From Pandoraea communis (GTDB lineage: Bacteria; Pseudomonadota; Gammaproteobacteria; Burkholderiales; Burkholderiaceae): a DNA stretch of 64,000 nucleotides. The DNA is taken from assembly GCF_902459745.1 (NCBI RefSeq), contig NZ_CABPSJ010000004.1:310001-374000 (forward strand), given 5' to 3'. Within the stretch, counting starts at the first letter, position 1. Each line of letters starts with the position of its first letter. The position numbers and the translations under genes are program-made. Of the stretch, positions 14,783 to 59,899 are shown one piece after another. Under the pieces are notes generated by a model that worked only from the letters and a program-made list of their open reading frames with translations, did not search any database and was not told the origin of the DNA.

Positions 14783-15835
14783 ATGACAGTCACCCTGACG
14801 ATCGATTGTATGGGCGGGGATCACGGCCCATCGGTGACGGTGCCGGCCGCGGTTCACTTCGTGCAATCTACCGACGATGTCGAACTTGTGCTGGTCGGAC
14901 AGCAGGAGATCATTAACGCGCAGCTCGCGAAGCTGCGTGTGACGGATCACCCGCGCCTGTCCGTGGTCAATGCGAGCGAAGTCGTCGCCATGGACGACTC
15001 CGTCGAGACCGCCCTGCGCAGGAAAAAAGACTCCTCGATGCGTGTGGCGCTCAATCTGGTCAAGGAAGCGCGTGCGCAAGCGTGCGTGTCCGCCGGTAAT
15101 ACCGGTGCGCTGATGGCCGTTTCGCGCTATGTGCTCAAGACGCTGCCGGGTATCGAGCGGCCCGCCATTGCCACCGTGTTGCCGAACCAGAAGGGCGGCT
15201 ACACCACGATGCTCGATCTGGGCGCGAACGTGGACTGCGAGCCGACTCACCTGTTGCAATTCGCCGAAATGGGCCACGCACTCGTTGCGGCGGTCGATGG
15301 TAAGGACCGCCCGTCGATCGGTTTGCTCAACATCGGCGAAGAAGTCATCAAAGGCAACGACGTCATCAAGCAGGCCGGCGAGCTGCTGCGCGGCTCCACG
15401 CTGAACTTCTACGGCAACGTGGAAGGCAACGACATCTATCGCGGCACGACCGACATCGTCGTGTGCGACGGATTTGTCGGCAACGTCGCACTCAAGACCT
15501 CCGAAGGCCTGGCGCAAATGCTTGGCGACATGATCCGCGAAGAATTCACCCGTACCTGGTGGACAAAAGTGATCGCTGTCGTTGCGCTGCCGATTCTCAC
15601 CCGCTTCAAGAACCGCGTCGATCATCGCCGTTACAACGGTGCCGCGTTGCTCGGATTGCGTGCGCTCGTTATCAAGAGCCACGGCTCGGCCGATGCCTAC
15701 TCGTTTGAATGGGCCATCAAACGCGGCTATGATGCAGTTCGCAATGGTGTGCTGGACCGTCTGTCGCACGCCATGGAAGAGAATCAGACTCAGCTCCGGG
15801 ACAACAAGCCGGCGAGCGCCATTCCGGCGCTCTGA
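14783..15835 (+). CDS. plsX: Phosphate acyltransferase PlsX
   Basis: PlsX makes acyl-phosphate from acyl-ACP, feeding PlsY in phospholipid synthesis. The 350-aa protein begins [20 protein letters not shown], the family's N-terminal signature. Other conserved pieces are [49 protein letters not shown] and [15 protein letters not shown]. The ATG at 14783 is chosen because longer versions would overlap the preceding terminator. fabH follows; its stop lies 38 bases before the fabH start used here. Confidence 0.96.
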
Positions 15836-15873
15836 TGCCGGTGGCTGCTCTTGGCGCCCTAACCGATCATAAG

Positions 15874-16863
15874 ATGACCCAGTCCGCGATTTATTCCCGT
15901 GTCGTCGGCACCGGCAGCTACCTGCCGGCGCGACGCGTGACCAATCAGCAGTTGGCCGACGAGCTTGCTACCCGCGGCATCGAGACGAGCGACGAGTGGA
16001 TCGTTGCACGTACCGGTATCAAGGCGCGCCATTTCGCCGCCCCCGATCAGACGAGCAGCGATATGGCGGTGGAAGCCGCGAAGCGCGCGCTCGACATGGC
16101 CGGGCTGAACGCCGACCAGCTCGATCTGATTCTGGTCGCCACGTCGACGCCCGATTTTGTGTTTCCGAGTACCGCCTGCCTTGTGCAGCACAAGCTCGGC
16201 ATCAAAAACGGTTGCCCGGCATTCGACATTCAGGCGGTCTGCTCCGGTTTCGTCTACGCCATGGCGATGGCCGACACCCTCATCCGCTCCGGTGCGTATC
16301 GCAACGTGCTCGTGATCGGTGCCGAAACGTTCTCGCGTATTCTCGATTTCAACGACCGTACGACGTGCGTGCTGTTTGGTGACGGCGCGGGCGCTGTCGT
16401 GCTGCAAGCTTCGAGCGAACCGGGCGTTCTGTCGACCGCGCTGCATGCGGACGGCAGCCACGCGAACATCCTGTGCGTGCCGGGTAATGTCAGCGGCGGT
16501 GCAGTGCAAGGCGAAGCGTTCCTCTATATGGATGGCCAGGCTGTGTTCAAGCTGGCCGTCAAAGTGCTGGAAAAGGTGGCCACCGAGGCCCTCGAAAAGG
16601 CAGGGTTAGCGTCGTCGGCGATCGACTGGCTGATTCCGCACCAGGCCAATCTGCGCATCATGTCGAGCACGGCCCGCAAGCTGGGGCTCTCGGAAGAGAA
16701 GATGATCGTGACCGTCGACCAGCATGGCAATACGTCTGCCGCTTCGATTCCGCTCGCGCTTGACGTCGCGGTTCGCGACGGGCGTATCAAGCCGGGCCAG
16801 AACGTCATGATCGAAGGCGTGGGTGGTGGCTTTACATGGGGCGCAGTGCTGTTCCGCATGTAA
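15874..16863 (+). CDS. fabH: Beta-ketoacyl-ACP synthase III FabH
   Basis: FabH condenses acetyl-CoA with malonyl-ACP to begin fatty acid synthesis. The 329-aa protein carries the full triad by codon count: Cys123 in [14 protein letters not shown], His256 in [12 protein letters not shown] and Asn286 in [15 protein letters not shown]. The C-terminus [13 protein letters not shown] is typical. The ATG at 15874 ([18 protein letters not shown]) matches the family start; an upstream in-frame ATG at 15835 would add 13 residues that are not family-like. It is in the plsX-fabH-fabD-fabG-acpP-fabF cluster. Confidence 0.97.
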
Positions 16864-42373: not shown

Positions 42374-43258
42374 ATGCGAGAGATCAGCCTGGACCGCTTG
42401 CGTACCTTGGTCGCGATTGCCGACCGTGGCTCATTCGTCGACGCTGCGCGTGCGCTGCATCTGGCGCCACCCACGGTCAGCCTCCACATTGCCGAACTGG
42501 AAGATCGCATTGGGGCGCCGCTCCTGTCGCGCAAGCGTGGGCATGTTCGACCGTCGGCGATAGGCGAGATGTTGATAGGGCGCGCGCGTCGACTGCTGGC
42601 CGACGCGGAGCAGGCGTTGGACGATGTTCATCGCCAGGTGCAAGGACTCGCCGGACGCGTGCGGCTCGGCGCATCGACCGGCGCGATCGCGCATCTGTTG
42701 CCGCAAGCGCTCGAGGTGTTGCGCCAACGCCATCCCGCGATCGACATTCAGATTGCCGTGCTCACTTCACATGAAACGCTAGCCCGGCTGGCCGACGGCA
42801 CGCTGGATGTCGGGCTGGTTGCTCTGCCTCAGTCCCCGGCGGCCGGGCTCGTGGTCAAGCCTTGGCGCCGCGATCCCGTCATGGCCTTCGTGCCGGCACA
42901 TTGGCAGTGTCCGGCGCGCATCACACCTCAGTGGCTCGCGGCTCAACCTCTTATTCTTAATGACGCCACCACGTCTCTCTCGCGTCTGACAGCGGAGTGG
43001 TTTGCTGCTGGCGGTCACCATCCTGTGCCGCGCATTCAGCTCAACTACAACGATGCGATCAAGAGTCTGGTCGCGGCAGGTTACGGGGCTGCGCTGTTGC
43101 CACATGAGGCGACGACGCCTTTGCCCGACCCGCGCATTGCCATGCGTGCGCTGCGTCCTGCGTTGTGGCGCCGCCTCGGCGTTGCCCATCGTGCCGGGTA
43201 CGTCGAGCGCTCCACGCAACACGTACTCGATGTGTTGTGGGCGCTCAGATTGGCGTAG
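42374..43258 (+). CDS. LysR-family transcriptional regulator
   Basis: The 294-aa protein has the LysR N-terminal winged helix ([20 protein letters not shown], helix-turn-helix to [18 protein letters not shown]) and a periplasmic-binding-like effector domain ([20 protein letters not shown] onward). It is divergent from argC, but the genes downstream are not obviously related, so the target and effector are unknown. The C-terminal half is intact to a TAG at 43256-43258. Confidence 0.92.
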
Positions 43259-44993: not shown

Positions 44994-45746
44994 TTACCCC
45001 TGCGGGCTGGCCGATTCCTGCGCGCGGCGCAGGCGCTCGCGGCTGTTGGTGAGGTGAGTGCGCATCGCAGCGCGGGCCGCTTCCGGATCGCGTCGTGCAA
45101 TGGCGTTGTAGATGTCTTCGTGTTCGCGATTCACGCGATTGAGATACGACACCTGATCGTCGTCGGCCAGTGCGGCGGAATTCACACGCGTACGCGGAAT
45201 GATCGTGTTGCCGAGTTGCTCGAGAATGTCGTGGAAATAGCGGTTGCCGGTCGCGCTCGCCACTTGCAGATGGAAGGCGACGTCGGCCGTCACGGCATTG
45301 CCGGTGCGTTGACGAACGTGCATCTCGAAGTCGTCCAGCGCCTGACGCATCAGCTTGAGTTGCATATCGGTGCGGCGATTCGCCGCCAGACCCGCCGCTT
45401 CCGTCTCCAGCGAAATACGTAATTCGAGAATCGCCATCACGTCGAGCATTGTCAGAATGCTGTTGGTGTCGACCTGTAGAGAATTCTCGCGCGGGGCCTC
45501 AAGCACGAACGTGCCGATGCCGTGACGCGTTTCCACCAGTTGTGCGGCTTGCAGCCGAGAGATCGCCTCGCGGACCACGGTGCGGCTCACCCCGAGGCTT
45601 TCCATGATGGCCGACTCGGTCGGCAGCTTGTCGCCCGGGCGGAACGTGCCGCTGCGAATCTGCTCGGACAAGGCGCTCACGACCTCTTCCGTGAGGCTGC
45701 GAGACTTGCGGCGAGGACGTGCGGGCAAGGGGCTGGTCATGGACAT
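44994..45746 (-). CDS. FadR-subfamily GntR regulator, probable aldarate repressor
   Basis: The 250-aa protein has the GntR winged helix (LTEEVVSALSEQIRSGTFRP, with SLGVSRTVVREAISRLQA) and an FCD effector domain. The FCD metal/ligand residues are visible: Asp-His in DVAFHLQVASATG, His in NREHEDIYNAIARR and His in AMRTHLTNSRERL. Regulators of this type control sugar-acid genes in proteobacteria. It lies beside the porin and gudD, and an inverted repeat lies just before its start, suggesting autoregulation. The effector (an aldarate or pathway intermediate) is inferred. Confidence 0.9.
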   Translation of the reverse strand: MSMTSPLPARPRRKSRSLTEEVVSALSEQIRSGTFRPGDKLPTESAIMESLGVSRTVVREAISRLQAAQLVETRHGIGTFVLEAPRENSLQVDTNSILTMLDVMAILELRISLETEAAGLAANRRTDMQLKLMRQALDDFEMHVRQRTGNAVTADVAFHLQVASATGNRYFHDILEQLGNTIIPRTRVNSAALADDDQVSYLNRVNREHEDIYNAIARRDPEAARAAMRTHLTNSRERLRRAQESASPQG

Positions 45747-45975: not shown

Positions 45976-47151
45976 TCAGAAATCGACGCGAATCCCCAAC
46001 ATGCCGACGAACTGCGAACTCGTCGTCGACGGCGTGCTGTTCTGCGAATCGCCGACCACCGGACCCGCGTTGATGATGCTCGTGGCATTCGCCCCGAGCG
46101 ACTTGCCGTTGGCGTGCTGCCACGCTTCGAGCGCGTACAGCGACGTGCGCTTCGAGAGCGAATACACCTGCGCGAGCGAGACCTGGTGGTAGGTGGCGGA
46201 ATCGGTGATGCCGTTGGCCTTCGACGCTGCCGTGTAGCTATACGCCGCCGCCAGACGCCATTGCGGAGCGACGATCCACGATGCATGCACGCCCGCCGTG
46301 TTGAAGACCGCGGTGTCGTGGAACAGCGACGCTGCGCCTGGCTTGTACTGCACGTTGCTGTAGCTCGCGCCCAGCGTCACGCTGCCGATCGTGTAAATAC
46401 CGGCCACGGCGATGTGTTGCAGCACATCGGCCGAAAGGTAACCCTGATTGACGGCCGACGCGCCCGGTGTGCCCGTCGATGCCCCGTTCCAGCTCGCGCC
46501 GGTGCCGCCGACGTTGTTGATGCGCAGATAACCGGCTGCCAGCGAGAGCGGGCCGCCGTCGTAACGCAGCGCCCCGGAATAGGTGTTGCCCTTGCTGAAG
46601 GCTCCGGCCTGACCGCCGACGCCGTATTGCAGGCTGGCCGTCACGCCCCACAGCAGCGGCGAGGTATACGTCACCGAGTTGTTGATGCGGATGGTCGTGT
46701 CGAGACCGTCGATATCGCCCGGGTGGGCGCCGGTTGCGCCCGTCACGTACGAGGTGGGGCCGATGGTGCCGACCATCAGGTAGTAAGGCGAGTACTGACG
46801 CCCGATGGTGACCGTGCCGAGCTGGTCGTTCTTCAGGCCGACGAATGCCTGACGGTTGAACATCACGCCCGACGAACTGAATGCGCCGCTATTGACGTCG
46901 AAACCGTTCTCCAACTGGAACAGCGCTTTGGTGCCGCCGCCGAGATCCTCGGTGCCGCGCAGGCCCCAACGGCTGCCCGCGAGGTTGCCGTTACGCAGGT
47001 AGGTGTTCGACTTGCCGTTCTGGTTGCTGCTGTAAGTCAGTGCATCGTCGACGATCCCGTACAGCGTCACGTTCGACTGCGCGAACGCCGGTACGGCACC
47101 GGCGGCGAGACCGGCCAACACTAGCCCGGCAAACAGTTTCGAATGTCTCAC
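45976..47151 (-). CDS. Outer-membrane porin (Burkholderiales OmpC-like)
   Basis: A trimeric general porin of the Burkholderia type, 391 aa. It has a signal peptide (KLFAGLVLAGLAAGAVPAFA/Q) and begins SNVTLYGIVDDALTYSSNQN, then SRWGLRGTEDLGGGTKALFQ and NRQAFVGLKNDQLGTVTIGR, all porin hallmarks. It ends with the outer-membrane-insertion Phe (GIRVDF). The GTG at 47151 is chosen because GAGGAGAA lies just upstream. It follows gudD by 65 bases without a terminator and probably admits sugar acids as part of the same transcript. Confidence 0.9.
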   Translation of the reverse strand: MRHSKLFAGLVLAGLAAGAVPAFAQSNVTLYGIVDDALTYSSNQNGKSNTYLRNGNLAGSRWGLRGTEDLGGGTKALFQLENGFDVNSGAFSSSGVMFNRQAFVGLKNDQLGTVTIGRQYSPYYLMVGTIGPTSYVTGATGAHPGDIDGLDTTIRINNSVTYTSPLLWGVTASLQYGVGGQAGAFSKGNTYSGALRYDGGPLSLAAGYLRINNVGGTGASWNGASTGTPGASAVNQGYLSADVLQHIAVAGIYTIGSVTLGASYSNVQYKPGAASLFHDTAVFNTAGVHASWIVAPQWRLAAAYSYTAASKANGITDSATYHQVSLAQVYSLSKRTSLYALEAWQHANGKSLGANATSIINAGPVVGDSQNSTPSTTSSQFVGMLGIRVDF

Positions 47152-47216
47152 GACTTCTCCTCTTGTGATGTGTTTTGTTGGACTTCGCTTGAAACGTTGT
47201 TGCGTGCTCACTGGTG

Positions 47217-48500
47217 CTAAAAACGAGGTGCCTTACCGCTCCAGTCGGGCCGGTATTTGCGCATCTGAACCGCGTCGTTGCGGGTGCGCAGTCCGCAACG
47301 CAGGTACTGTTCGTGCAGCTTGGCCAACTGGTCCTGATCGATTTCGAGGCCAAGTCCCGGCGCTTTCGTCACGGCGACCGCGCCATCGCGGATGGCGATC
47401 TTTCCGCCGCGCACAACCTCCTCGTCGGCGGCTTGCCACGGGTAGTGCGTGTCGCATGCATAGGACAGACGCGGCACGCTCGCGGCCAGATGCGTCATCG
47501 CCATCAGGCTGATGCCGAGGTGCGAGTTCGAGTGCATCGACAAGCCGAGATCGAACGTCTCGCACATGCGTGCGAGCATTTGCGTGTCGCGCAATCCGCC
47601 CCAGTAGTGGTGATCGGAGAGGATGATCTGTGCGCCGTTCAGACGCACGTTCTCGCGGAATTGCCGCAGATCGGTGACCACCATGTTGGTGGCGAGCGGC
47701 ATGCCTGTGGCGCGATGCAGTTCCGCCATGCCTTCGAGCGTGGGAGTGGGGTCTTCGTAGTATTCGAGATCGCCTGCGAGTTCACGTCCCATCGCAATCG
47801 CCGTGGGTAGCGACCAGTTGCCATTTGGGTCGATGCGCAACGGCTTGTCCGGAAATGCGCGTTTGAGTGCCTTGAGGCACTTCACTTCCTCCATGGGATC
47901 GAGCACACCGGCTTTGAGCTTGATGCTGCCGAAGCCGTAGGTGTCGATCATCGTCCGAGCCTGCGCAACGAGTTGTTCGGCACTGAGTGTTTCGCCCCAG
48001 CCGTCGGGCGCATAGCCGCTCGCCGGTGCGTCGATGTGCTGCGCGTACTTGAAGAAGAGGTACGCGCTGTACTGCACCTCCTGGCGCACCGCGCCGCCGA
48101 GCAATTCGACGAGCGGAATGCCCAGATGACGCGCCTGCAGGTCGAGGAACGGGACTTCGAACGCGGAATAGATTTTCTCCACGTCCTTGCGCGGGTCGGT
48201 GCCCGGCGCGAGTTCGTATTCCACGCGCTCGCCGCGAACGCCCTGACGCACCACCGCCGCCACGCGCTCGCGCAGACCGTTGGTGTCGAACGGGTCCATC
48301 CCGATCAGGTGCGGGCGGGTGTTTTCGAGCAATGCCAGAACCGGCGCATCGCCATACGTTTCTCCCAACCCGATGTGCCCGTTATCGGTCTCGATTTCGA
48401 TGATCGAGCGCAGTGCGTATGGCTCATGAATGCCGGCGGCGTTGAGCAGCGGCGGGTCGCGAAAAGCAATCGGGGTGATCGTGATGCGATGGATTTTCAC
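47217..48500 (-). CDS. gudD: Glucarate dehydratase GudD (enolase superfamily)
   Basis: GudD dehydrates D-glucarate to 5-dehydro-4-deoxyglucarate. The 427-aa protein has the muconate-lactonising/glucarate-dehydratase pattern: IKLKAGVLDPMEEVKCLKAL with the Lys base, LRIDPNGNWSLPTA and EDPTPTLEGMAELHRA with metal ligands, ATNMVVTDLRQF, and MHSNSHLGISLMAM with the catalytic His. These match E. coli GudD at the active-site positions, though galactarate activity cannot be excluded. The GTG at 48500 (VKIHRITITPIAF) is chosen by homology. It is upstream of the porin and carries a GTCAT-N3-ATGAC site in its promoter. Confidence 0.9.
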   Translation of the reverse strand: MKIHRITITPIAFRDPPLLNAAGIHEPYALRSIIEIETDNGHIGLGETYGDAPVLALLENTRPHLIGMDPFDTNGLRERVAAVVRQGVRGERVEYELAPGTDPRKDVEKIYSAFEVPFLDLQARHLGIPLVELLGGAVRQEVQYSAYLFFKYAQHIDAPASGYAPDGWGETLSAEQLVAQARTMIDTYGFGSIKLKAGVLDPMEEVKCLKALKRAFPDKPLRIDPNGNWSLPTAIAMGRELAGDLEYYEDPTPTLEGMAELHRATGMPLATNMVVTDLRQFRENVRLNGAQIILSDHHYWGGLRDTQMLARMCETFDLGLSMHSNSHLGISLMAMTHLAASVPRLSYACDTHYPWQAADEEVVRGGKIAIRDGAVAVTKAPGLGLEIDQDQLAKLHEQYLRCGLRTRNDAVQMRKYRPDWSGKAPRF

Positions 48501-48576: not shown

Positions 48577-48589
48577 GTCATCGTATGAC
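48577..48589. promoter_or_regulatory. Operator GTCAT-CGT-ATGAC upstream of gudD
   Basis: A perfect 5-3-5 palindrome. On the minus strand it contains TACGAT, a possible -10 (complement of 48580-48585), with a weak GTCACC at -35 after 17 bases. It lies 77 bases before the gudD start. Confidence 0.7.
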
Positions 48590-48746
48590 TGGGCGTAATT
48601 TAGGTGACGCGCAGGGCGCCTCTCTATCGGTGTAATCCCTGATAAGCGACTGGGCGTTCTCATTAAATCGCCTTATATCACGGGGTTTGGCGCGAATATT
48701 TCGCTTTCCTAGGGAAATCTCTGAGGCGGTTCGGCATGTCTCATGA

Positions 48747-48778
48747 TTGCAAATTCGCCATTCGAGTCATATGATGAC
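48747..48778 (+). promoter_or_regulatory. Promoter of the ABC importer with operator on the -10
   Basis: TTGCAA (48747-48752), a 17-base spacer and TATGAT (48770-48775) make a good sigma-70 promoter. The palindrome GTCAT-ATG-ATGAC (48766-48778) covers the -10, so a bound regulator would block polymerase. The GAGGAG ribosome-binding site lies at 48801-48806. Confidence 0.75.
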
Positions 48779-48811
48779 TTACGAGAAATTCAACTCTAAA
48801 GAGGAGACAAC

Positions 48812-49987
48812 ATGGTCTTTAGCCGCAGGGGATTCTGGCAACACGCGTTTGGCGCACTGGCATGTGCCGCCGCACTGGGAAGCATGGCGAGTACCGCAAC
48901 CGCTGCGCCGGTCGCGCTGAACATCGTCGACGTCGCAGGTAACCTCGCCCTTACGCAGAAGGGCTTCGAGGCGTTCCGCGACAAATACCCGGATCTGGTC
49001 TCGAAGATCACGTTTACCAACGCGCCTGCCCCGCAACTGCCGGGCAAGATCAAGGCCATGCAATCGGCCGGGCGCTCGGATATCGACATCGTGCTCACCG
49101 GGACCGACGCCCTTGCCGCCGGTATCCAGCAAAATCTCTGGCAACGTCTGCTGCCCGACTACAGCGCGAAGTTTCCGGGCGTGCTCGACAAGTACGCGCC
49201 CAATGTGCGCGCCATGCAGGAACTCTCCAAGGGTTACGGTCTGGCCGTGACGTTCATGCCGGCAGGCCCCCTCGTCGAATACAACCCGGCCAAGGTGAGC
49301 AACCCGCCGAAGACGCCCGCCGAACTGCTCGCGTGGTGCAAGGCGAATCCGGGCAAGTTGATTTATGCGCGTCCGGCCAACTCGGGGCCGGGCCGCACGT
49401 TCCTCATGGGCTTGCCGTATCTGCTGGGCGACAAAGACCCGCACGACCCGGTCAAGGGGTGGGACAAGACGTGGGCGTTCCTGAAGGAACTCGACGCGTG
49501 TATTCCGTACTACCCGGGCGGCACGTCGGCCGTGATGAAGGAACTGGGTGAGGGCAGTCGCGACATGACGCTCACCGTCACGGGCTGGGACATCAATCCG
49601 CGTGCCCTGGGCATCGTGCCGGCAACGTTCAAGGTGCAATCGTTCGACAAGTTCACGTGGGTCAACGATGCGCACTACATCGTCGTTCCCAAGGGCGTGC
49701 CGAAAGAGAAGATGGACGTCATCGTCAAGCTGATCAACTTCATGCTTGAGCCGGCACAGCAAGCGCTCACGTATGACGACGGCTATTTCTATCCGGGCCC
49801 TGCGGTGAAGGACGTGCCGCTGTCTGCCGCCCCGGCGAAGAGCCAGGAAGTGATCGCGAAGTACGGCCGTCCGGAATACGCGAAACTCATCGCCGACTTC
49901 CCGCATGCCGTGCCGCTCGACGCGACGGCGATGGTGGCGGCGTTCCAGAAATGGGATGCCGAGATCGGCTCGCTGAAATCGAAGTGA
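48812..49987 (+). CDS. ABC importer, periplasmic substrate-binding protein
   Basis: The 391-aa protein is a class of the PotD/iron-thiamine-type binding proteins. The N-terminus has a possible Tat signal (SRRGFW, with core FGALACAAALGSMASTATA). The two-lobed fold shows IVLTGTDALAAGI, YARPANSGPGRTFLMGLPYL and WVNDAHYIVVPKGVPKEKMD. Substrate is not stated by sequence. Its promoter carries the same operator as gudD and kdgD, and no other aldarate transporter is in the locus, so glucarate/galactarate is the inferred substrate. It is first in a four-gene operon. Confidence 0.88.
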   Translation: MVFSRRGFWQHAFGALACAAALGSMASTATAAPVALNIVDVAGNLALTQKGFEAFRDKYPDLVSKITFTNAPAPQLPGKIKAMQSAGRSDIDIVLTGTDALAAGIQQNLWQRLLPDYSAKFPGVLDKYAPNVRAMQELSKGYGLAVTFMPAGPLVEYNPAKVSNPPKTPAELLAWCKANPGKLIYARPANSGPGRTFLMGLPYLLGDKDPHDPVKGWDKTWAFLKELDACIPYYPGGTSAVMKELGEGSRDMTLTVTGWDINPRALGIVPATFKVQSFDKFTWVNDAHYIVVPKGVPKEKMDVIVKLINFMLEPAQQALTYDDGYFYPGPAVKDVPLSAAPAKSQEVIAKYGRPEYAKLIADFPHAVPLDATAMVAAFQKWDAEIGSLKSK

Positions 49988-50008
49988 CCGGAGTGATCGG
50001 AGTCGCGT

Positions 50009-51091
50009 ATGAAGCACAACTTTCAACACCTGCGCCTCGATAACGTCGCGCGCAGTTTCACCAACGCGGAGGGGCAGTCCGTGGCCGCCCTGAACGGCCT
50101 GGACCTGACCATCGAGCGAGGTGAATTCATCGCCCTGCTGGGCCCCTCGGGGTGCGGCAAATCGACGGCGCTCAACTGTATTGCCGGACTCACGCCGCTT
50201 ACCGGCGGCGCGATCTGGCTCGACGACGAGCGCATTGACGTGCTGCCGAGCGAGAAGCGCGGCTTCGGCATGGTCTTCCAGAACTATGCGTTGTTTCCGC
50301 ACATGAGCGTGCTCGATAACGTGGGCTTCGGCCTGCGTATGCGCGGCGTGTCGCGCGCCGAGATCGAAAAACGCGCCCGGGAAGCGTTGCAACTGGTGCA
50401 ACTCGTGGGGCATGAGCGCAAGCTGCCGGGCCAGCTCTCGGGCGGGCAGCAGCAGCGCGTGGCGATTGCTCGCGCCATCGTGATCGAACCGCCCGTCGTG
50501 CTGATGGACGAACCGCTCTCGAACCTCGACGCGAAGCTGCGCATCGAGATGCGCGCCGAGATCCGCCGCATTCACGGCAAGCTCGATCGCGCAACCATCT
50601 ACGTCACGCACGATCAGGACGAAGCGCTGTCCATGGCCGACCGCATCGTGGTGATGAAAGAGGGCGTGGTGCAGCAGATCGGCGCGCCGCGCGATGTGTA
50701 CTGTCGTCCGCGCAATTTGCACGTGGCGCGCTTCATGGGCTATCGCAATGTGCTCGATGTGTCGATCACGTCGGCGCAGGGCGATCATGCGCGTGTATCG
50801 TGCGGCGGCGCTTCGTTCGACGGCGTGCTCATGGAGTCGCCGGGCAGCGAGGGCCAGGTCAGCGTGGCGATTCGTCCCGACGATTTCGAGCGCGCACAGG
50901 CCGCCAACGACAACGCGTTCGAAGCGGTTGTGGAAACCGTCGAGTATGGTGGCCGCGATTCGCTGTTGCGCGTGGCGTCGCCGTTCGGGCCGCTTTATGC
51001 ACGCTTGCCCGGCGACTATGCCGTCGGCGAGCGTGTGCCGCTTCACGTGCCCGCCGACCGCACGCTCGTCTACGCGGGAGAGCGCGTATGA
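50009..51091 (+). CDS. ABC importer, ATP-binding protein
   Basis: The 360-aa ATPase has the Walker [18 protein letters not shown]-loop [12 protein letters not shown], signature [15 protein letters not shown], Walker [13 protein letters not shown] and switch His in [10 protein letters not shown]. The C-terminal TOBE region ([16 protein letters not shown] and [12 protein letters not shown]) is typical of the PotA/UgpC/MalK-like class. It ends in an ATGA overlap with the first permease gene. Confidence 0.95.
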
Positions 51092-51975
51092 GTGCGGCCA
51101 CGACTGCCTCGTCGCTGACCCCGGCGGCGCGCTTCGACAGCCGGGGCTGGCTGGTCGCTCCGGCGCTCGTGTGCCTGATCGGGATGTTCGTGTACCCGTT
51201 CGCCTACGGCTTGTTCCTGTCGTTCCAGCCGATGGAGGGCGGCGGTGTCTTCGCGAACTATCTCAAGTTCTTCACGGAGCCGACGCTGTGGCCGACGGTG
51301 CTCATCACGCTCAAGCTCGCGGTGCCCGCGACGTTGATCAACGTGGGCGCATCGGTGCCGGCCGCCTTCGCGTTGCGCAAGAGCACGCGCGCTTCGAAAT
51401 TCGTGACGATGCTGCTCGTCGTGCCGGTGACGCTCGGCACGGTGCTCATCGCCGACGGCATGCTGACGTACTACGGTCCGAACGGCTGGTTCCCGCAGGC
51501 GCTGCACGCACTGCATTTGTACAGCGACGAAGTGCGTCTGACGCACAACTACTGGGGGGTGTTGATCTCGCTGGTGATCTCGGGCTTTCCGTTCGCGTTC
51601 CTGCTGATTCTGTCGTACGTGACGGGCATCGACCCAACGCTCGCACGCGCGGCCGGCACGCTCGGCGCCGGGCCATGGCAGCAATTCCGGTTGATCTATC
51701 TGCCGCTGCTGGTGCCGGGACTGACGATGGCGGCATGCCTGTCGTTCGTGCAGGCATTCTCGGTGTTTCCGTCGGCCGTGCTGCTGGGTGTGCCGGCCGG
51801 TGCCACGCGAGTGGTATCGATTGCGGCATATGAAGCGGCGTTCGAGAGTTATGACTACTCGCTGGCGTCATGCGTTGCCATTGTGATGGGCTTCGTTCAG
51901 TTGCTGATCGTGGCGGGCATGCTCGGCGCACGCCGGGCGTTCTACAGTGGTCCCACCACGGGAGGTAAGGGATGA
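51088..51975 (+). CDS. ABC importer, permease 1
   Basis: The 295-aa inner-membrane protein of the PotB type has about six hydrophobic helices. The EAA-like loop is ARAAGTLGAGPWQQFRLIYL. The first helix is WLVAPALVCLIGMFVYPFAY. ATGA overlaps on both sides (with the ATPase and permease 2) show tight translational coupling. Confidence 0.93.
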   Translation: MSAATTASSLTPAARFDSRGWLVAPALVCLIGMFVYPFAYGLFLSFQPMEGGGVFANYLKFFTEPTLWPTVLITLKLAVPATLINVGASVPAAFALRKSTRASKFVTMLLVVPVTLGTVLIADGMLTYYGPNGWFPQALHALHLYSDEVRLTHNYWGVLISLVISGFPFAFLLILSYVTGIDPTLARAAGTLGAGPWQQFRLIYLPLLVPGLTMAACLSFVQAFSVFPSAVLLGVPAGATRVVSIAAYEAAFESYDYSLASCVAIVMGFVQLLIVAGMLGARRAFYSGPTTGGKG

Positions 51976-52928
51976 GCGGTACGGATAAGCATCTGGCCGG
52001 AACGCTGGCCGCGCAGAACGGAGATTTCATGACGACGCCTTCGCCCGTGAGTCCGGCCGCAGTGGCGAACCCGGCACGTCGCAAGATGCGTCGCGAAGGA
52101 CCGGGCTCGCGCCTTTGGCGCGCGCTGGTGTGGGGCGCAATGATCTTCTTCCTCGTGAACGTCGGGCTGATGATCGCCACCGTCACGATGAACTCGTTCG
52201 CTACGCGCTGGTTCGGCACCCCCTTGCCTGAAGGCTTCACGCTGCATTGGTACGCGCAGGCATGGCAGGACTTCCAGCTCGCGCAGGTGCTGTGGGTGAC
52301 CGTCGAAGTCGTGGGGGCTGTCGTGCTGCTGTCGATTGCGCTGGGTGTGCCTGCGGCGTATGCGTTGGCGCGGGTGCAGTTCCCCGGCAAGCGGCTCGCG
52401 ATGCTGGTCTTTCTGCTGCCGATGATGGTGCCGCCCGTGACGTACGGCATTCCGATGGCGACGGTGCTCTACAAGGTCGGGCTGGGGGGCACGCTCACGG
52501 GCGTGATTCTCGCAAACCTCGTGCCTTCGCTGCCGTTCGTGATTCTGGTGATGACCCCGTTCATCGAGCAGATCGACCCGAATCTCGAAGCCGCCGCACG
52601 CATCTTCGGCGCGAATACGCAGAAGTACTTCCGTCACGTGTTGCTGCCGTTGCTGGTGCCCGGCATTCTCGCTGCGGGACTGCTGACGCTGGTGCGTACC
52701 ATCGGCATGTTCGAACTGACGTTCTTCACGGCGGGGCCCGATACGCAGACGCTGGTCGTTGCCCTCTACTACGCGGTGTTCTCGACCGGTGTACGGGCGC
52801 CACAATCCATCGACGCGATGGCCATGATCTACATGGCCATCACCCTGCTGTGGGTGCTCATCGCGCTTCAGTTCGTGAGTCCGACGCAGTTGGTGAGCCG
52901 CGTCAAGGAAGCGCCGAAGGACGCGTAA
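51972..52928 (+). CDS. ABC importer, permease 2
   Basis: The 318-aa permease of the PotC type has a basic N-terminus of about 45 residues (ARRKMRREGPGSRLWRALV), followed by six helices and an EAA-like loop (EAAARIFGANTQKYFRHVLL). With permease 1 it forms the heterodimeric channel. It is the last gene of the ABC operon; 234 bases separate it from the next gene. Confidence 0.93.
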   Translation: MSGTDKHLAGTLAAQNGDFMTTPSPVSPAAVANPARRKMRREGPGSRLWRALVWGAMIFFLVNVGLMIATVTMNSFATRWFGTPLPEGFTLHWYAQAWQDFQLAQVLWVTVEVVGAVVLLSIALGVPAAYALARVQFPGKRLAMLVFLLPMMVPPVTYGIPMATVLYKVGLGGTLTGVILANLVPSLPFVILVMTPFIEQIDPNLEAAARIFGANTQKYFRHVLLPLLVPGILAAGLLTLVRTIGMFELTFFTAGPDTQTLVVALYYAVFSTGVRAPQSIDAMAMIYMAITLLWVLIALQFVSPTQLVSRVKEAPKDA

Positions 52929-53094
52929 GCCGTGCGGGTGCCGCGCGCCTTCGGAACCCCGAAGATTCGCGCGGCGCCTGCGGTATCCCCATCGCTGCCA
53001 ACGAGCCATTGAGGCGACGCGCGTCAGTATGCGTTGCGCCGGCTGCGTGGCCCGATTGTTGCGCCGCAACGAAAAAATATCGATCGAATTCGAT

Positions 53095-53120
53095 GGAATA
53101 AGGCGCGGGGTCCAGGCGTT
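53095..53120 (+). promoter_or_regulatory. Probable ECF-type promoter before the COG4315 gene
   Basis: GGAAT (53095-53099), a 17-base spacer and CGTT (53117-53120) resemble promoters read by ECF sigma factors (GGAA...CGTT/CGTC). It lies 43 bases before the COG4315 start and just upstream of an ECF sigma gene, so it is likely that factor's target. Confidence 0.5.
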
Positions 53121-53162
53121 CTGAGAGTGTCGTCACCGACATTTCACTCAGGAGCCAAAGTC

Positions 53163-53555
53163 ATGAACCAACGTCAATCGATGTCCGCCATGCTCACCGC
53201 CGTCGTGGCCGCCGCAGGTCTTTTCGCTGCTGCTGCCGCGCACGCCGAGACCCCGCTCAAGGCCATGGGCGGCATGCTGGTCGATGGTCAGAACCGTACC
53301 GTCTACACGTTCGACAAAGACATGGCCGGCAGCGGCAAGAGCACTTGCAACGGTCCTTGCGCCGAGGCCTGGCCGCCGGTAATGGCCGCGCCGGGGGCAA
53401 AGGCCGAAGGCGACTACGCCGTCATCACGCGCGACGACGGCAAGATGCAATGGGCGTACAAGGGCAAACCGGTCTACCTGTTCTCGAAAGATGCCGCGCC
53501 GGGCGATAAGAAGGGCGATGGCTTCAAGGATGTGTGGCACGTCGTCAAGCCCTGA
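53163..53555 (+). CDS. Secreted COG4315-type protein (repeat in predicted lipoproteins)
   Basis: The 130-aa protein has a signal peptide (LTAVVAAAGLFAAAAAHA/E), with no lipobox Cys, so it is periplasmic rather than a lipoprotein. It then has the COG4315 pattern: GGMLVDGQNRTVYTFDKDMA, the Cys pair STCNGPCAEAWPPV, and YKGKPVYLFSKDAAPGDKKG. Function is unknown. It is followed by the ECF sigma and anti-sigma genes and lies under a probable ECF promoter. Confidence 0.85.
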   Translation: MNQRQSMSAMLTAVVAAAGLFAAAAAHAETPLKAMGGMLVDGQNRTVYTFDKDMAGSGKSTCNGPCAEAWPPVMAAPGAKAEGDYAVITRDDGKMQWAYKGKPVYLFSKDAAPGDKKGDGFKDVWHVVKP

Positions 53556-53732
53556 GAGAGGACGCGGGCAGCATAAACGGGGAGCCCGAGGGTGTTGGTG
53601 TTTCGGCCGGCCATGCGCCAGAATGCAAAGTCGTGGCGGCTCAGTATAATTTCGCGGCAGACGCCGGCGGTATCCGCCGGCGATGCTTCGGACTGGCTTG
53701 CCGCCAAGCACCCTCCGCCAGGAAGTTCGCCG

Positions 53733-54296
53733 ATGACCGGTCAGGATTTGCCCAGTTTGCTCCCGGGCTTGCTGCCACGCCTCTGGGCGTTCGCTCTGCG
53801 CATTACGGGCGACCACCACGATGCCGAGGATCTCGTGCAACGCGCTTGCGTGCACGCGCTCGAGCGCGTGCCTCAATGGCAGCCGGGCACCTCGGCGTTG
53901 AGCTGGATGTACAGCATCGTGCATACCACGTGGATCAACGAGATCCGCGCGCGCCGCGTTCGTTCGCGCGGCAGTCTGGCGTGGGACGACGCCGATGTCG
54001 AAGCGATCCCCGATCTTCAGGCGTCGACGCCGGAGGATCTGGCGAGTTTTCACCAGGTGTTCGGTGCCGTCGACCGTCTGCCCGAAGCGCAGCGATTCGT
54101 CGTGCTGCTCGTGGCTGTGGAGGGGCTCAGCTATCAGGAGGCGGCGCTCGTGCTCGACGTTCCCATCGGCACGGTCATGAGCCGTCTGTCACGCGCACGC
54201 CGTACGATCGGCGACCAGTTCCGTCACCCGGCGAGACAACCCCGTGGCGCCGATGGTGCCGGCCCCGCCTCCGGCGCATGTGAGGAGGACGCGTGA
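53733..54296 (+). CDS. ECF RNA polymerase sigma factor
   Basis: The 187-aa sigma factor has region 2 (RITGDHHDAEDLVQRACVHA and LSWMYSIVHTTWINEIRARR) and region 4 (LLVAVEGLSYQEAALVLDVP and GTVMSRLSRARRTIGDQF). Its C-terminal tail is short and Gly/Ala-rich. ATG 53733 (MTGQDLPSLLPGLLPRLW) has GGAAG upstream. The stop overlaps the anti-sigma start, so the two are coupled. Confidence 0.92.
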   Translation: MTGQDLPSLLPGLLPRLWAFALRITGDHHDAEDLVQRACVHALERVPQWQPGTSALSWMYSIVHTTWINEIRARRVRSRGSLAWDDADVEAIPDLQASTPEDLASFHQVFGAVDRLPEAQRFVVLLVAVEGLSYQEAALVLDVPIGTVMSRLSRARRTIGDQFRHPARQPRGADGAGPASGACEEDA

Positions 54297-55279
54297 TGAA
54301 CGAAGACGATATCCGCCTGCTCGCGTACGTCGACGAAGCCCTTTCCGCTGCGCAGCGGGAGGAAGTGGAAGCGGCGATTACCGCGTCGCCCGAATTGATC
54401 GACGCGGTCGAGTCGCTGCGCGCGTCGCGTCTGCCATATCGCGAGACGTTCGCCGCACAAGTGATTCCGCCGGTACCGGACAGTCTTAGCGCGAATATCG
54501 AAGCCCTGCTGCGTGCACACGCGTTGCAGCAGATGGCGGTGGAGGGCAGGACTGCCGACGTTGTGGTCCCGCTTGAGTCCGCTGCCTCCATTCGTGTCGA
54601 TGATGCGCATAACCTGCCCGCCGCCAACGATGCTCCTGCCGGACGGCGCGTGCGCGCATGGTGGCTCGCTGCGGCGTTTGCTGCGGGTGTGGCGGCGACC
54701 GCCGTCACGCTGTCGTTGGTGCCAGGCGTGCTGAACAAGTCGGGGGCGGGCGGCGGTGGGCTGATGTCCGCCTCGATGCCGCCGCCGAAGTCGCCGCAAG
54801 GCACGACTTGGGTGCGCGCGGCCGCCGAGTATCAGCAACTGTATGCGCGCGACACGATCGCATCGGTTCGCGTGGACGAGAGCGACACCGAGCGCACCGT
54901 TAGCGATATTCGCCAAAACGACAAACTCGATATCAACGTTCCCGATCTGCGCTCGCAGGGGCTGACGTTCAAGCGCGTGCAACGTCTGCGCTGGCAGGAC
55001 CGGGCGCTCGTGCAGATGGTGTATCTGCCGCAGACGGGCGATCCGATTGCGTTGTGCGTATTGCGCGATCCGCGTCCGGATCAGGGGGTGTCGGAGCAAA
55101 AGATCGACCAGATGGGGGTGGTGACGTGGCGCAAGGGACAGATCGGTTACGCCCTCATCGGTGCGCCGGGTTCGGTAGATCTCAAGGCCGTGGCCAAGGC
55201 GCTGTCGGATGGGCCTGTCGCGCCGCTGTACGGCTTGTTGATGCTGCCGGAAATCAGGCAAGGGCATTCGGCTTCGTAG
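54296..55279 (+). CDS. Transmembrane anti-sigma factor
   Basis: The 327-aa protein has an N-terminal helical domain (DIRLLAYVDEALSAAQREEV) without the His-Cys zinc motif of classical ZAS domains, one membrane helix near residues 122-142 (WWLAAAFAAGVAATAVTLSL), and a periplasmic domain of about 180 residues containing KRVQRLRWQDRALVQMVYLP and KGQIGYALIGAPGSVDL. A GAGGAGG site precedes the ATG at 54296; a GTG at 54293 is possible. It is immediately downstream of its sigma factor. Confidence 0.88.
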   Translation: MNEDDIRLLAYVDEALSAAQREEVEAAITASPELIDAVESLRASRLPYRETFAAQVIPPVPDSLSANIEALLRAHALQQMAVEGRTADVVVPLESAASIRVDDAHNLPAANDAPAGRRVRAWWLAAAFAAGVAATAVTLSLVPGVLNKSGAGGGGLMSASMPPPKSPQGTTWVRAAAEYQQLYARDTIASVRVDESDTERTVSDIRQNDKLDINVPDLRSQGLTFKRVQRLRWQDRALVQMVYLPQTGDPIALCVLRDPRPDQGVSEQKIDQMGVVTWRKGQIGYALIGAPGSVDLKAVAKALSDGPVAPLYGLLMLPEIRQGHSAS

Positions 55280-55322
55280 TCGCTGCATAGCCGCTTCGTC
55301 ACCTCTCTGGCACGTCGCCCCG

Positions 55323-55360
55323 ATGACAAACGCCCTCGAATCCGAGGGCGTTTGTCATTT
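55323..55360. terminator. Strong bidirectional terminator
   Basis: A perfect 16-bp stem, ATGACAAACGCCCTCG (55323-55338) and CGAGGGCGTTTGTCAT (55343-55358), with a 4-base loop and TT following. It ends the anti-sigma gene and the convergent dehydrogenase gene. Confidence 0.93.
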
Positions 55361-55398
55361 CTACGCTTGCGTGCGCGGTGCCGGAGCGTGTGCAGACA

Positions 55399-56973
55399 TT
55401 ACGATTGCGACAAGGCGCCGTCGCGAAGTCGCCACAGACCGAGCGGATTGGCTTCTTGCAGCGCTTCGGGCAGCAGCGTATCGGGCAGATCCTGATAGCA
55501 CACGGGACGCAGGAACCGATCGATGGCGCTCGCGCCCACCGACGTGAACATCGCATTCGACGTGGCCGGGAACGGGCCGCCGTGCACCATCGCATGACAC
55601 ACCTCGACACCGGTCGGGAAGCCGTTTGCCAGGATGCGTCCGGCGCGGCGCTCCAGACTCGGCAGCAGACGGCGTGCCGTCGCGGTGTCGCCTGCGTCGA
55701 GTTGCAGTGTAGCCGTGAGTTGGCCTTCAAGACGCTCGGTGATCGCGATCATCTCGTCGATCGTATCGCAGGCAATAACGACCGACGCGGGGCCGAAGAC
55801 TTCGTCATGCAGCGCCGGTGTGGCGAGGAATTCGGCCGCCGTCGTGCGAAAAAGGGCGGCTTGCCCCTGACACCAGCTGCCCGCCTGACCGCGTGCGAGC
55901 ACCGACACGTTTGGCTCGTCGGCCAGTCGTGCCACGCCCTTGTCGTACGCCTGATGAATGCCCGGCGTCAGCATCGTGCCTGCGGCCTTCGCCGTGAGCG
56001 CTTCGGTGGCGCTACGGCAGAAGCGCTCGAGCGCGTCACCGGTGATGCCGAGTACCAGCCCGGGGTTCGTGCAGAACTGACCCACACCCATCGTCAGCGA
56101 ATCGACGAAGCCTTTGGCAATGGCGTCGCCGCGCGCGGCCAGTGCTTCGGGCAGCAGATAGACGGGATTGATGCTGCTCATTTCGGCATACACGGGGATC
56201 GGCACGGCGCGCGCCTGCGCGATACGTTGCAGTGCCAGGCCGCCGTTGCGCGAACCGGTGAAGCCTACGGCGGCGATTGCCGGGTGCGCGACGAGCGCCT
56301 CGCCTACCGCACGCTCGCCGACCAGCAGCGAGAACACCCCTTCGGGCAGGCCGAGCTTCTGCACGGCAGACCGAACGGCACGTGCCACGAGTTCGGACGT
56401 GCCCAAATGTGCCGAGTGTGCCTTGACGATCACCGGGCAGCCCGCAGCGAATGCCGACGCCGTGTCGCCACCCGCCACCGAAAACGCCAGCGGGAAGTTG
56501 CTCGCACCGAACACCGCTACGGGACCCAGACCGATCTTCGCCAGACGCAAATCGCTGCGCGGCAGCGGTTCGCGTGCGGGCTGGGCGGGGTCGATGGTGG
56601 CATCGAGGAAGTGGCCGTCACGTACCACCCGGGCAAACATCCGCAATTGACCGACTGTGCGTCCGCGTTCGCCTTGCAGGCGGGCGACAGGCAATCCGGT
56701 CTCGACGTGAGCGCGCTCGATGAGTGCGTCGCCCAGATCGAGAATCGCCTGTGCCACCGCTTCGAGAAACTCGGCGCGTTTGGCCAGCGGCAGGGTGCGA
56801 AACGGATCGAACGCGGCCCTCGCCAAGTCGCACGCACGCTCGACATCCTGCACGGTGCCTGCACCGAACGCCGGTGTCAGGCGCTCGCCGCGCGACGGAT
56901 CGAACGCCTCGAGCGTTCCCGCATTGCCGCGCACGTCGGTGCGGCCGATCAACATCTCGCCGGTGATCTGCAT
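55399..56973 (-). CDS. 2-oxoglutarate semialdehyde dehydrogenase (KGSADH)
   Basis: This enzyme oxidises 2,5-dioxopentanoate to 2-oxoglutarate. The 524-aa protein is an aldehyde dehydrogenase of the type-III KGSADH group: [20 protein letters not shown] and [20 protein letters not shown] for NAD(P)-binding, [15 protein letters not shown], the Glu in [20 protein letters not shown] and the nucleophilic Cys in [15 protein letters not shown]. The ATG at 56973 is 7 bases from AAGGAG; a first ATG at 56979 is too close to it. It is downstream of kdgD by 11 bases. Confidence 0.93.
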
Positions 56974-56984
56974 GTGCATTCTCC

Positions 56985-57896
56985 TTAGCCTTCCACTTGC
57001 CGGATCAGGGCATTGAGCGCGCCGAGTTCATCCGGCAGCAGGTCGGTCAGCGGTGCGCGCACCGGGCCGGCGTCGTGCCCGACGAGCTTTGCGCCCGCCT
57101 TGACGATACTCACGGCGTAGCCCGCGCGGCGGTTGCGTATCTCCAGATACGGCAGGAAGAACGTATCGAGCAGACGGCCCATCGTCTCCTGGTCGTTCTC
57201 GCACACGGCGCGATAGAACCGCATTGCCGTCTTCGGAATGAAGTTGAAGACGGCCGACGAGTACACCGGCACGCCCAGTGCGCGGTAGGCCGCGGCATAA
57301 ACCTCGGCCGTCGGCAGGCCGCCCAGATAGGAGAAGCGCTCGCCCATGCGACGGCGAATCTGCACCATGCGCTCGATGTCGCCCACGCCGTCCTTGAAAC
57401 CGATCAGGTTCGGACACTTCTCGGCCAGACGCTCCAGCTCGTCCGCGCCCAGTTTCGAATTGGCGCGGTTGTAGACGATCACGCCGATCTTCACCGAACG
57501 GCAGACTTGTTCGACGTGTGCGGCAATGCCATCCAGGCTGGCTTCGGTCAGGTAGTGCGGCATAAGCAGCACGCCCTTGGCGCCAAGGCGCTCGGCCTCC
57601 TGCGCGTACTCGGCGGCCAGACGCGTCGGGCCGCCGGCGCCGGCCAGAATCGGCACTTTGCCTGCGCAGGTGTCCACCGCCGTCTTGATGACTGCGCTGT
57701 AGTCCTGGGGCGTGAGCGAGAAGAACTCGCCTGTGCCGCCTGCGGCGAAGAGCGCCGTTGCACCGAACGGTGCCAGCCACTCCAGACGGGCTGCGTAGCC
57801 ACGGGCGTTGAAGTCGCCATTGGCGTCGAAGTCGGTCACGGGAAAAGACAACAAGCCGTCGGAGACGATCTGCTTGAGTTCTTGAGGTGCAGTCAT
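56985..57896 (-). CDS. kdgD: 5-dehydro-4-deoxyglucarate dehydratase KdgD
   Basis: KdgD converts 5-dehydro-4-deoxyglucarate to 2,5-dioxopentanoate, releasing CO2 and water. The 303-aa (beta/alpha)8 protein belongs to the DHDPS/NAL family: [30 protein letters not shown] with the Tyr, and the Schiff-base Lys in [15 protein letters not shown]. The start [20 protein letters not shown] is standard for the enzyme. It is the first gene of the minus-strand kdgD-KGSADH operon under a GTCAT-type operator. Confidence 0.95.
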
Positions 57897-57976
57897 TTCA
57901 AGAGTTCCTGTCGGCCGCAGGGCCGGATTCGATGAGGGAAAAAGAGGCTCAACCAGCGCTTGGCGCTAAGTTATAT

Positions 57977-58008
57977 GTCATCGTATAACATGTGATCGGA
58001 CCGAACAA
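57977..58008 (-). promoter_or_regulatory. kdgD promoter with operator on the -10
   Basis: On the minus strand TTGTTC (complement of 58003-58008), a 17-base spacer and TACGAT (complement of 57980-57985) form a promoter. The near-palindrome GTCAT-CGT-ATAAC (57977-57989) covers the -10, with one mismatch from the GTCAT-N3-ATGAC form. Confidence 0.7.
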
Positions 58009-58114
58009 GAGGGTGGCTGTCCGAATGGCAGTGGGATAAACCCGCAAAAGGGACGAGAAGGGTTTCTCCCGATTCCGTCGAAGGCCCTTGTCTATGCCCA
58101 AAATGGGGGATCTA

Positions 58115-58127
58115 GATGTATGATGAC
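58115..58127 (+). promoter_or_regulatory. Partial operator before garD
   Basis: GATGT-ATG-ATGAC (58115-58127) keeps the right half ATGAC of the operator and contains TATGAT (58119-58124), a good -10, but the left half is degenerate. No good -35 is seen at 17 bases. Confidence 0.35.
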
Positions 58128-58267
58128 GCATAAGTGACGGGTGGTTGAGCCAGCGTCAACGACAGCGGCAGGTGATTCGGACAATGCGTTGAGGAGCGCG
58201 ACAAATCGCACGCGTGGGTCAAGTGCGGGTGTTGCGTCCCATCAGGACAGCAGGGGGAGTGAGTAAC

Positions 58268-59899
58268 ATGGCATCGACGATGGACACGGCCCGCACGGCG
58301 GCGGGCGAATTGGGATCAGGATCGGGACCGGGGCAGGCGGCGAAGGATGTGCCGCGCTACATCCGGATGCAGGAAGACGACAACGTTGCTATCGTCGTGA
58401 ACGACGGTGGTTTGCCCGCCGGTAGCCGGTTTGCGGGCGGGCTCATGCTAGTCGACGCCGTGCCGCAGGGACACAAAGTCGCCCTGGTGGACTTGTCCGA
58501 GGGGGCGGCGGTGATTCGCTACGGCGTGGTGATCGGCTATGCCTCGCGGGCGTTGCCCGCCGGCAGTTGGGTCAACGAGCGCAATCTCACCATGCCCGAG
58601 GCGCCGTCGCTGGATCGTCTGCCGATCAGCACGCGGGTGCCCGCAGCATTACCGCCGCTCGACGGCTTCACATTTCAGGGCTATCGCAACGCCGACGGTT
58701 CGGTTGGCACACGCAATATCCTCGCGATCACCACAACGGTGCAATGCGTGGCCGGGGTGGTCGAATTTGCCGTTAAGCGCATCAAGGAGACATTGCTGCC
58801 GCAGTATCCGAATGTCGACGACGTGGTCGCGCTCGAGCATACCTACGGCTGCGGCGTAGCCATCGACGCCCCGGACGCCATCGTGCCGATCCGCACGTTG
58901 CGCAACATCGCCACGAACCCGAATTTCGGCGGCGAGGTCATGGTGGTGAGCCTCGGGTGCGAGAAGCTCCAGCCTGAGCGTCTGCTGCCGGCGGGGAGCA
59001 TTCCCATCGGCAGTGCCGATGCTGACGGAAAGCCCGACACCGTGTGTCTGCAAGACGACGCACACGTTGGCTTCCTGTCGATGATCGATTCGATTCTCGC
59101 CATGGCGCAAACGCATCTGGCACGGCTCAACGCGCGGCAGCGCGAGACGGTGCCGGCATCCGAACTGATCGTGGGTGTGCAGTGCGGCGGCAGCGACGCG
59201 TTTTCCGGCGTCACTGCGAACCCGGCCGTGGGCTTTGCAACGGATCTGCTTGTGCGCGCGGGGGCGACGGTGATGTTCTCCGAAGTGACCGAGGTGCGCG
59301 ACGGGATCGACCAACTCACTTCACGCGCGGCCACGCCGGAAGTTGCCGAAGCGATGATTCGGGAGATGGCGTGGTACGACGCGTATCTCGAGCGCGGACG
59401 CGTAGACCGCAGCGCCAACACGACGCCCGGCAACAAGCGCGGCGGGTTGTCCAATATCGTCGAAAAGGCGATGGGGTCGATCGTGAAATCGGGCACCGGG
59501 CCGATTCACGGTGTGGTGGCTCCCGGTGCGAAGCTCGACCGTGCCCACCAGCGCGGACTGATCTACGCCGCGACCCCGGCGAGCGACTTCATCTGCGGCA
59601 CGCTGCAACTCGCCGCAGGCATCAATCTGCACGTCTTCACGACCGGTCGGGGAACGCCATACGGACTGGCCGAGGTGCCCGTGATCAAGGTCGCCACGCG
59701 CTCCGATCTGGCGCGCCGCTGGCACGATCTGATGGATATCGACGCGGGCCGCATTGCGACGGGCGACGCCACCATCGAAGACATCGGGTGGCAACTCTTT
59801 CACCGGATGCTCGCCGTGGCGAGCGGAGAAAAGACCTGGGCCGAGCGGTGGGGGCTGCACAACGCGCTGACGCTGTTCAACCCGGCGCCGGTGACCTGA
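58268..59899 (+). CDS. garD: Galactarate dehydratase GarD
   Basis: GarD dehydrates galactarate (meso-glucarate) to 5-dehydro-4-deoxyglucarate, feeding the same route as GudD. The 543-aa protein has an N-terminal SAF domain ([20 protein letters not shown] and [20 protein letters not shown]), then the long UxaA/GarD domain with [45 protein letters not shown] and [20 protein letters not shown]. The ATG at 58268 has GGGGGAGTGAG before it. It is divergent from kdgD. Confidence 0.95.

Follow-up and report, generated by a model that had tools for sequence, protein, structure and literature searches.

Aldarate genes in a stretch of 64,000 nucleotides from Pandoraea communis (contig NZ_CABPSJ010000004.1, positions 310,001 to 374,000; hereafter the window) carry 13-bp palindromic sites at their promoters, and our analysis indicates that these sites are very probably the operators of the FadR-type GntR protein encoded at 44994–45746, which would act as a GguR-like aldarate repressor. 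The sites, their conservation, their co-occurrence with the regulator and their overlap with promoter hexamers were all found by computation, and from these we infer binding, repression and the effector. The regulon appears to comprise operators at six promoters in three places of the genome, reaching two loci on other contigs, which would make it a compact and testable system with one repressor.

Palindromic sites at aldarate promoters

Four of the sites lie in the window. The operator of the gudD-like promoter (48577–48589, – strand) reads GTCATCGTATGAC, or GTCATACGATGAC on the – strand, and includes the –10 hexamer TACGAT at 48580–48585. That of the promoter of an ATP-binding cassette (ABC) importer (48766–48785, + strand) consists of GTCATATGATGAC at 48766–48778 followed by a weak third half-site, ACGAG, with the –10 TATGAT (48770–48775) inside the operator and the –35 TTGCAA at 48747–48752. 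At kdgD (57970–57989, – strand), three half-sites are arranged as GTTAT-ACG-ATGAC-AT-ATAAC; the core, GTCATCGTATAAC, occupies 57977–57989 and contains the –10 TACGAT (57980–57985), with the –35 TTGTTC at 58003–58008. The garD operator (58115–58127, + strand) reads GATGTATGATGAC and is accompanied by the –10 TATGAT at 58119–58124 and a weak third half-site, ATAAG, at 58130–58134. The third half-site is complete at kdgD, whereas 4 of its 5 bases match at ABC and garD and 3 of 5 at the gudD-like promoter. A sequence-only reading of the same DNA had placed these four sites correctly, and the 17-bp spacings that it gave for TTGCAA/TATGAT (ABC) and TTGTTC/TACGAT (kdgD) were also right. What it described as a half-site at garD reads better as a near-complete site, GATGT-ATG-ATGAC.

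The number of sites in the window carries little information. At up to one mismatch the motif occurs 4 times against 1.58 expected, a count reached by 6 of 100 shuffles, and the fourth match (15866–15878) falls within an open reading frame (ORF) at 15835–16863; we set the window count aside as evidence because this enrichment is not clearly above chance. The genome scan that the sequence-only reading had proposed as a check was equivocal for the plain 13-mer and favourable for a refined pattern. Exact GTCATNNNATGAC sites number 8 genome-wide, and of the 6 outside the window 5 are inside ORFs, as called by a heuristic based on GC content at third codon positions (GC3), and 1 (L064) is ambiguous. 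The refined pattern GTYRTAYGATRAC, which has 26 matching places when one mismatch is allowed (3 exact and 23 with one mismatch), has exactly 3 matches in 5.7 Mb, namely the gudD-like, ABC and kdgD sites. A relaxed pattern added 11 places outside the window, 5 of them inside ORFs and 6 not wholly ORF-covered by the same heuristic. Three pattern-match regions from these scans were inspected (L237, L238 and L239).

It is conservation, and not the window count, that gives the motif its significance. All 26 aligned Pandoraea genomes, P. communis included, have the gudD-like and ABC sites without any change, and a 27th (L042) has both as well; at the ABC operator the invariant run extends over 48765–48787 in all 26. 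The kdgD core 13-mer occurs in 27/27 genus orthologs of at least 93% identity, within a run (57969–57993) that is invariant in 15/15 aligned genomes; the operator was not found at the 56%-identical kdgD of G014. Of 26 genus orthologs of garD, 25 have an exact site and the remaining one differs by a single base. The lack of conservation that would have spoken against the sequence-only reading was therefore not observed. Both divergent operators are retained even in G024 (L042 12838–13300), from which the gudD-like gene is missing at its usual place (the rest of that genome was not searched); the promoter left without its gene there now faces the porin gene and gntR.

Two further probable targets, found through pattern matches, lie on other contigs. 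The gene named gudD in the sequence-only reading (47217–48500, – strand) turned out to be a divergent glucarate-dehydratase-like member of the enolase superfamily, scoring 275.9 bits with TIGR03247 against a cutoff of 828.7, and the canonical glucarate dehydratase (861.9 bits) is encoded elsewhere (G000:C2, L237:3280-4608). Upstream of the canonical gene are two sites, GTTGTCTGACGACATACAAC at ~75 bp and GTTGTACGACAAC at ~210 bp; among 27 genus orthologs the proximal one is exact in 24 and the distal one in 22 (23 allowing one mismatch). No site was seen at two gudD homologs of G014, the orientation of one of which (L275) is not settled. The other target, at G000:C6, is a major facilitator superfamily (MFS) gene, the partial product of which scores 272.1 bits with TIGR00893, the D-galactonate transporter family, below the cutoff of 395. 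Its operator, GTCATCGTACATC, overlaps a –35 TTGTCA located 17 bp from TAGGAT, and was found in 23/23 of the loci inspected (of the 32 genus genomes, 9 have no match at the cut-off; the count excludes L299, an additional copy in G024 of 66% identity). Read on the other strand, GATGTACGATGAC, its left half is identical to that of the garD site. Conserved sites are thus present at the glucarate/galactarate genes kdgD, garD and canonical gudD, and at the MFS gene.

Association of the motif with one GntR regulator

The sequence-only reading had named the FadR-type GntR protein at 44994–45746 as the most likely regulator, and comparison across genera favours that choice. We scanned up to 250 bp upstream of gntR orthologs (52–72% identical, drawn from other genera and from G014) for the exact motif GTYRTNNNAYRAC. 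In the regions from other genera it is present upstream of gntR in 43/84 (reversed control 0; shuffle mean 0.25) and upstream of kdgD in 36/51 (reversed control 1; shuffle mean 0.16), and 79 distant loci (1.22 Mb) hold 112 motif sites versus 20 for the reversed control. The motif accompanies the orthologs of this GntR across genera and families, in unrelated neighbourhoods, and does not accompany its FCD paralogs (28–42% identical), of which 1 of 20 upstream regions contains it. A single set of 27 of the 32 genus genomes has close orthologs of gntR (at least 93%), kdgD (at least 93%) and canonical gudD (at least 84%). Distant copies of the three (57, 56 and 77%, respectively) are present in G014, and none was detected at the cut-offs used in four genomes (G002, G023, G025 and G029); the gntR match of G027 has one in-frame TGA. 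In G004, a 77%-identical garD located elsewhere (L133, C1:4081175-4082749) has operators of its own, GTCATCGTACAAC and GTTGTATGATGAT, of the type found in other genera. Taken together, these patterns make GntR 44994–45746 the best candidate binder of the sites.

Several observations weigh against this assignment. The 84 gntR regions are not independent, many being from Pseudomonas, and neither are the 20 paralog regions. No exact site is present in 41 of the 84 gntR and 15 of the 51 kdgD regions, and none in the 42 garD upstream regions from other genera. The closest orthologs outside the genus (Caballeronia, 71–72%; L138 and L139) are without an exact site in 16.7 kb; these two loci also gave no tblastn match to garD, kdgD, the aldehyde dehydrogenase gene or the gudD-like gene within 8 kb. 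In the genus itself, the canonical gudD genes of G003, G019 and G028 (84–85% identical) have neither site within 262 bp. Finally, the gudD-like and garD promoters have no good –35 at 16–18 bp, which weakens the –10 assignment there.

A different protein could own the sites, with gntR a bystander: the LysR-type regulator encoded at 42374–43258, 1.7 kb from gntR, or one of the FCD paralogs, this GntR having 37 matches in the genome at E <= 0.001 when its own is counted. We consider this improbable. For LysR, no close ortholog was found in 31 cluster stretches, which reach ~2.5–3 kb past gntR (partial 29–36% matches occur in 7), and we rejected it as the binder on that ground. For the paralogs, the motif is nearly absent from their own upstream regions, and it is the orthologs of GntR 44994–45746 that it follows from one gene neighbourhood to another. 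One match in P. communis touches the paralog family: at G000:C10:5088-5100 (L239), GTTATATGAAAAC immediately precedes an FCD paralog gene adjoining a GlcD-like oxidase gene, and may be that paralog's own operator.

The candidate regulator (– strand) has an N-terminal GntR winged helix-turn-helix and a C-terminal FCD domain, PF00392 (84.3 bits) and PF07729 (92.2 bits) both scoring above their gathering thresholds. The ligand or metal residues of FCD domains are one aspartate and three histidines, which we take to be D155, H159, H209 and H231 in this protein; all four are invariant in an alignment of seven orthologous sequences.

Overlap of the proposed operators with promoter elements

The position of the sites suggests how the proposed repressor would work. 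In the absence of inducer, a GntR dimer would occupy GTYRT-N3-AYRAC. At the gudD-like, ABC, kdgD and garD promoters the operator contains the –10 TAYGAT, so that RNA polymerase would be excluded; the MFS operator spans the –35, and canonical gudD has its operator immediately downstream of TAGAAT, a putative –10. GntR would then be released from the DNA when its FCD pocket binds a ligand, either an aldarate or a product of one (glucarate, galactarate or 5-dehydro-4-deoxyglucarate). The kdgD genes of other genera agree with this scheme. Among 37 sites upstream of them, TAYGAT is found in the sense orientation at the same place in 36 and in the antisense orientation in none, TTG precedes it at a 16- or 17-bp spacer in 31, and a third half-site, AYRAC, follows after a 2-bp gap in 31. 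The preference for the sense orientation fits steric repression, and the proposal of the sequence-only reading that the regulator represses by covering the –10 can be retained as a likely mechanism. The need for the operator also to hold the –10 hexamer would explain both the asymmetry of GTTGT-ACG-ATGAC and, more generally, why the palindrome is imperfect.

Could GntR bind the sites and mainly activate? The poor –35 boxes at the gudD-like and garD promoters are what activator-dependent promoters have. However, a protein bound across the –10 or –35 normally blocks polymerase, and the conserved upstream element that does stand at an activator's distance (see below) has a different sequence; we regard predominant activation as unlikely, slightly more so than binding by another factor. 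Least credible of all is that the 13-mers are simply conserved –10 regions, symmetrical by accident and bound by no repressor. A TAYGAT –10 hexamer does form part of all four window sites, but whole palindromes and their flanks are invariant beyond the hexamers, the motif sits over the –35 at the MFS gene and past the proposed –10 at canonical gudD, and most of the kdgD sites in other genera have the third half-site at a constant distance, 2 bp further downstream.

FadR-subfamily operators are palindromes with TKGT/ACMA boxes, and many GntR-family groups have additional, weaker half-sites at 7–12 nt from the centre of the site (PMC4494728). The Pandoraea operators are likewise palindromic with an additional half-site. 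As to the boxes, orthologs' sites such as GTTGTCGTACAAC fit them, and the window sites depart from them at the inner G: the gudD-like and ABC sites read AT/AT in place of the inner GT/AC (GTCAT-N3-ATGAC), presumably so as to accommodate the –10 TAYGAT.

A second conserved element and the setting of the proposed regulon

A GGGWTTNTCCC-like element (GGG, an AT-rich centre, CCC) is conserved upstream of the six aldarate promoters, L276 and L247 included. At the gudD-like promoter it is GGGATTACACC (48629–48639, – strand), centred 51.5 bp upstream of the –10 centre and found in 25/26 genomes by a permissive regular expression. At the ABC promoter it is GGGAAATCTCT (48712–48722, + strand; 55.5 bp), with AGGGAAA in 26/26; at kdgD, GGGTTTATCCC (58033–58043, – strand; 55.5 bp), with GGGATWAACCC in 26/27; and at garD, GGGTTTCTCCC (58060–58070, + strand; 56.5 bp), which is less conserved in a 15-genome alignment. 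The MFS gene has GGGATTATCCGTAAAC in 23/23 loci, ~51 bp upstream of the –10 centre, and canonical gudD has GGGTAWACCC in 23/24, ~34 bp upstream if TAGAAT is the –10. In five of the six promoters the centre of the element is therefore 51–57 bp upstream of the –10, a position that suits an activator. In a seed test on five promoters the score was 33, compared with 26.5 on average for the shuffles, and none of 300 shuffles came up to it; this test is partly post hoc, the fifth (MFS) promoter having been added in the knowledge that it held the element. An earlier test on four promoters, with a different score, was weak (7/150 shuffles reached the score).

A second regulator thus probably acts at the same promoters. 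The idea of a single-repressor regulon put forward in the sequence-only reading holds insofar as the promoters share a GntR operator, and becomes doubtful, given the second element, insofar as it supposes one regulator only. We judge it possible, at somewhat less than an even chance, that two co-extensive regulators are involved, GntR at the core promoter and an activator on the GGGWTTNTCCC-like element at five promoters (at ~34 bp at canonical gudD). This arrangement would amount to AND-type control at every aldarate promoter of the genus, and the element provides a defined piece of DNA with which to fish for the second regulator. This regulator was not found with RGGGWTTHTCCS, which gave 12 genome sites, 2 of them in the promoters described here, when the ORFs flanking 6 others were scanned. 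One of these 6 sites lies just before a Crp-like gene and one between an ABC ATPase gene and an IclR-type gene; the flanks of the other four (taurine-ABC/MocR-like, OsmC, ribonucleotide-reductase and Usp/OsmY-like) have no common theme. A lead to the second regulator comes from L304 1200 (G000:C2:410099), where AGGGATTATCCC separates a gene for a PotA-like ABC ATPase from a divergent gene for an IclR-type regulator.

Our finding is largely an ordinary one, a GguR-like aldarate regulon of a kind described in Halomonas. There, the GntR-family regulator GguR is predicted to control a galactarate/glucarate utilization operon, and the system has a predicted TctABC transporter (PMC5507952). The likeness lies in a GntR-family regulator predicted for galactarate/glucarate genes, and the difference in the targets, which in Pandoraea include an ABC importer, a porin and the divergent dehydratase. 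GarABC of Enterocloster clostridioformis is an aldarate importer of the ABC type, linked to a glucarate dehydratase gene, that replaces GudP/GarP (PMC11775122). The Pandoraea importer resembles it in transporter type and gene context; Pandoraea differs in also having an MFS carrier gene with an operator. The present analysis adds the extent of the regulon, the embedding of the operator in the promoter, the correction of gudD and a second element. A full-text literature search, with most subscription journals outside its coverage, returned no occurrence of GTTGTACGATGAC and no description of this regulon in Pandoraea.

The genes of the window cluster fit aldarate metabolism. The ABC importer genes (48812–52928, + strand), which by family matches encode a substrate-binding protein, an ATPase and two permeases, are predicted from their operator and context to serve aldarate uptake, as is the MFS carrier. 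On the – strand, the gudD-like gene has a proposed GTG start at 48500, chosen from the sequence; in two loci, L037 and L040, the alignment starts only at residue 13 of the longer ORF. A Gram-negative porin gene (Pfam Porin_4; 45976–47211, – strand) lies between the gudD-like gene and gntR and is probably in one operon with both. The kdgD gene (56985–57896, – strand; TIGR03249 434.6 bits, cutoff 373.95) is followed by an aldehyde dehydrogenase gene (Pfam Aldedh; 55399–56979, – strand), the two spanning 55399–57896. The galactarate dehydratase gene garD (58268–59899, + strand) likely starts at the ATG at 58268; its TIGR03248 score of 919.4 bits (cutoff 730.85) was obtained on the longer ORF 58214–59899. 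The interval 53034–55288, which separates the importer genes from the kdgD operon, holds a Lipoprotein_15 gene followed by ORFs without a Pfam match, and the genes of this interval have matches in most of the genus stretches.

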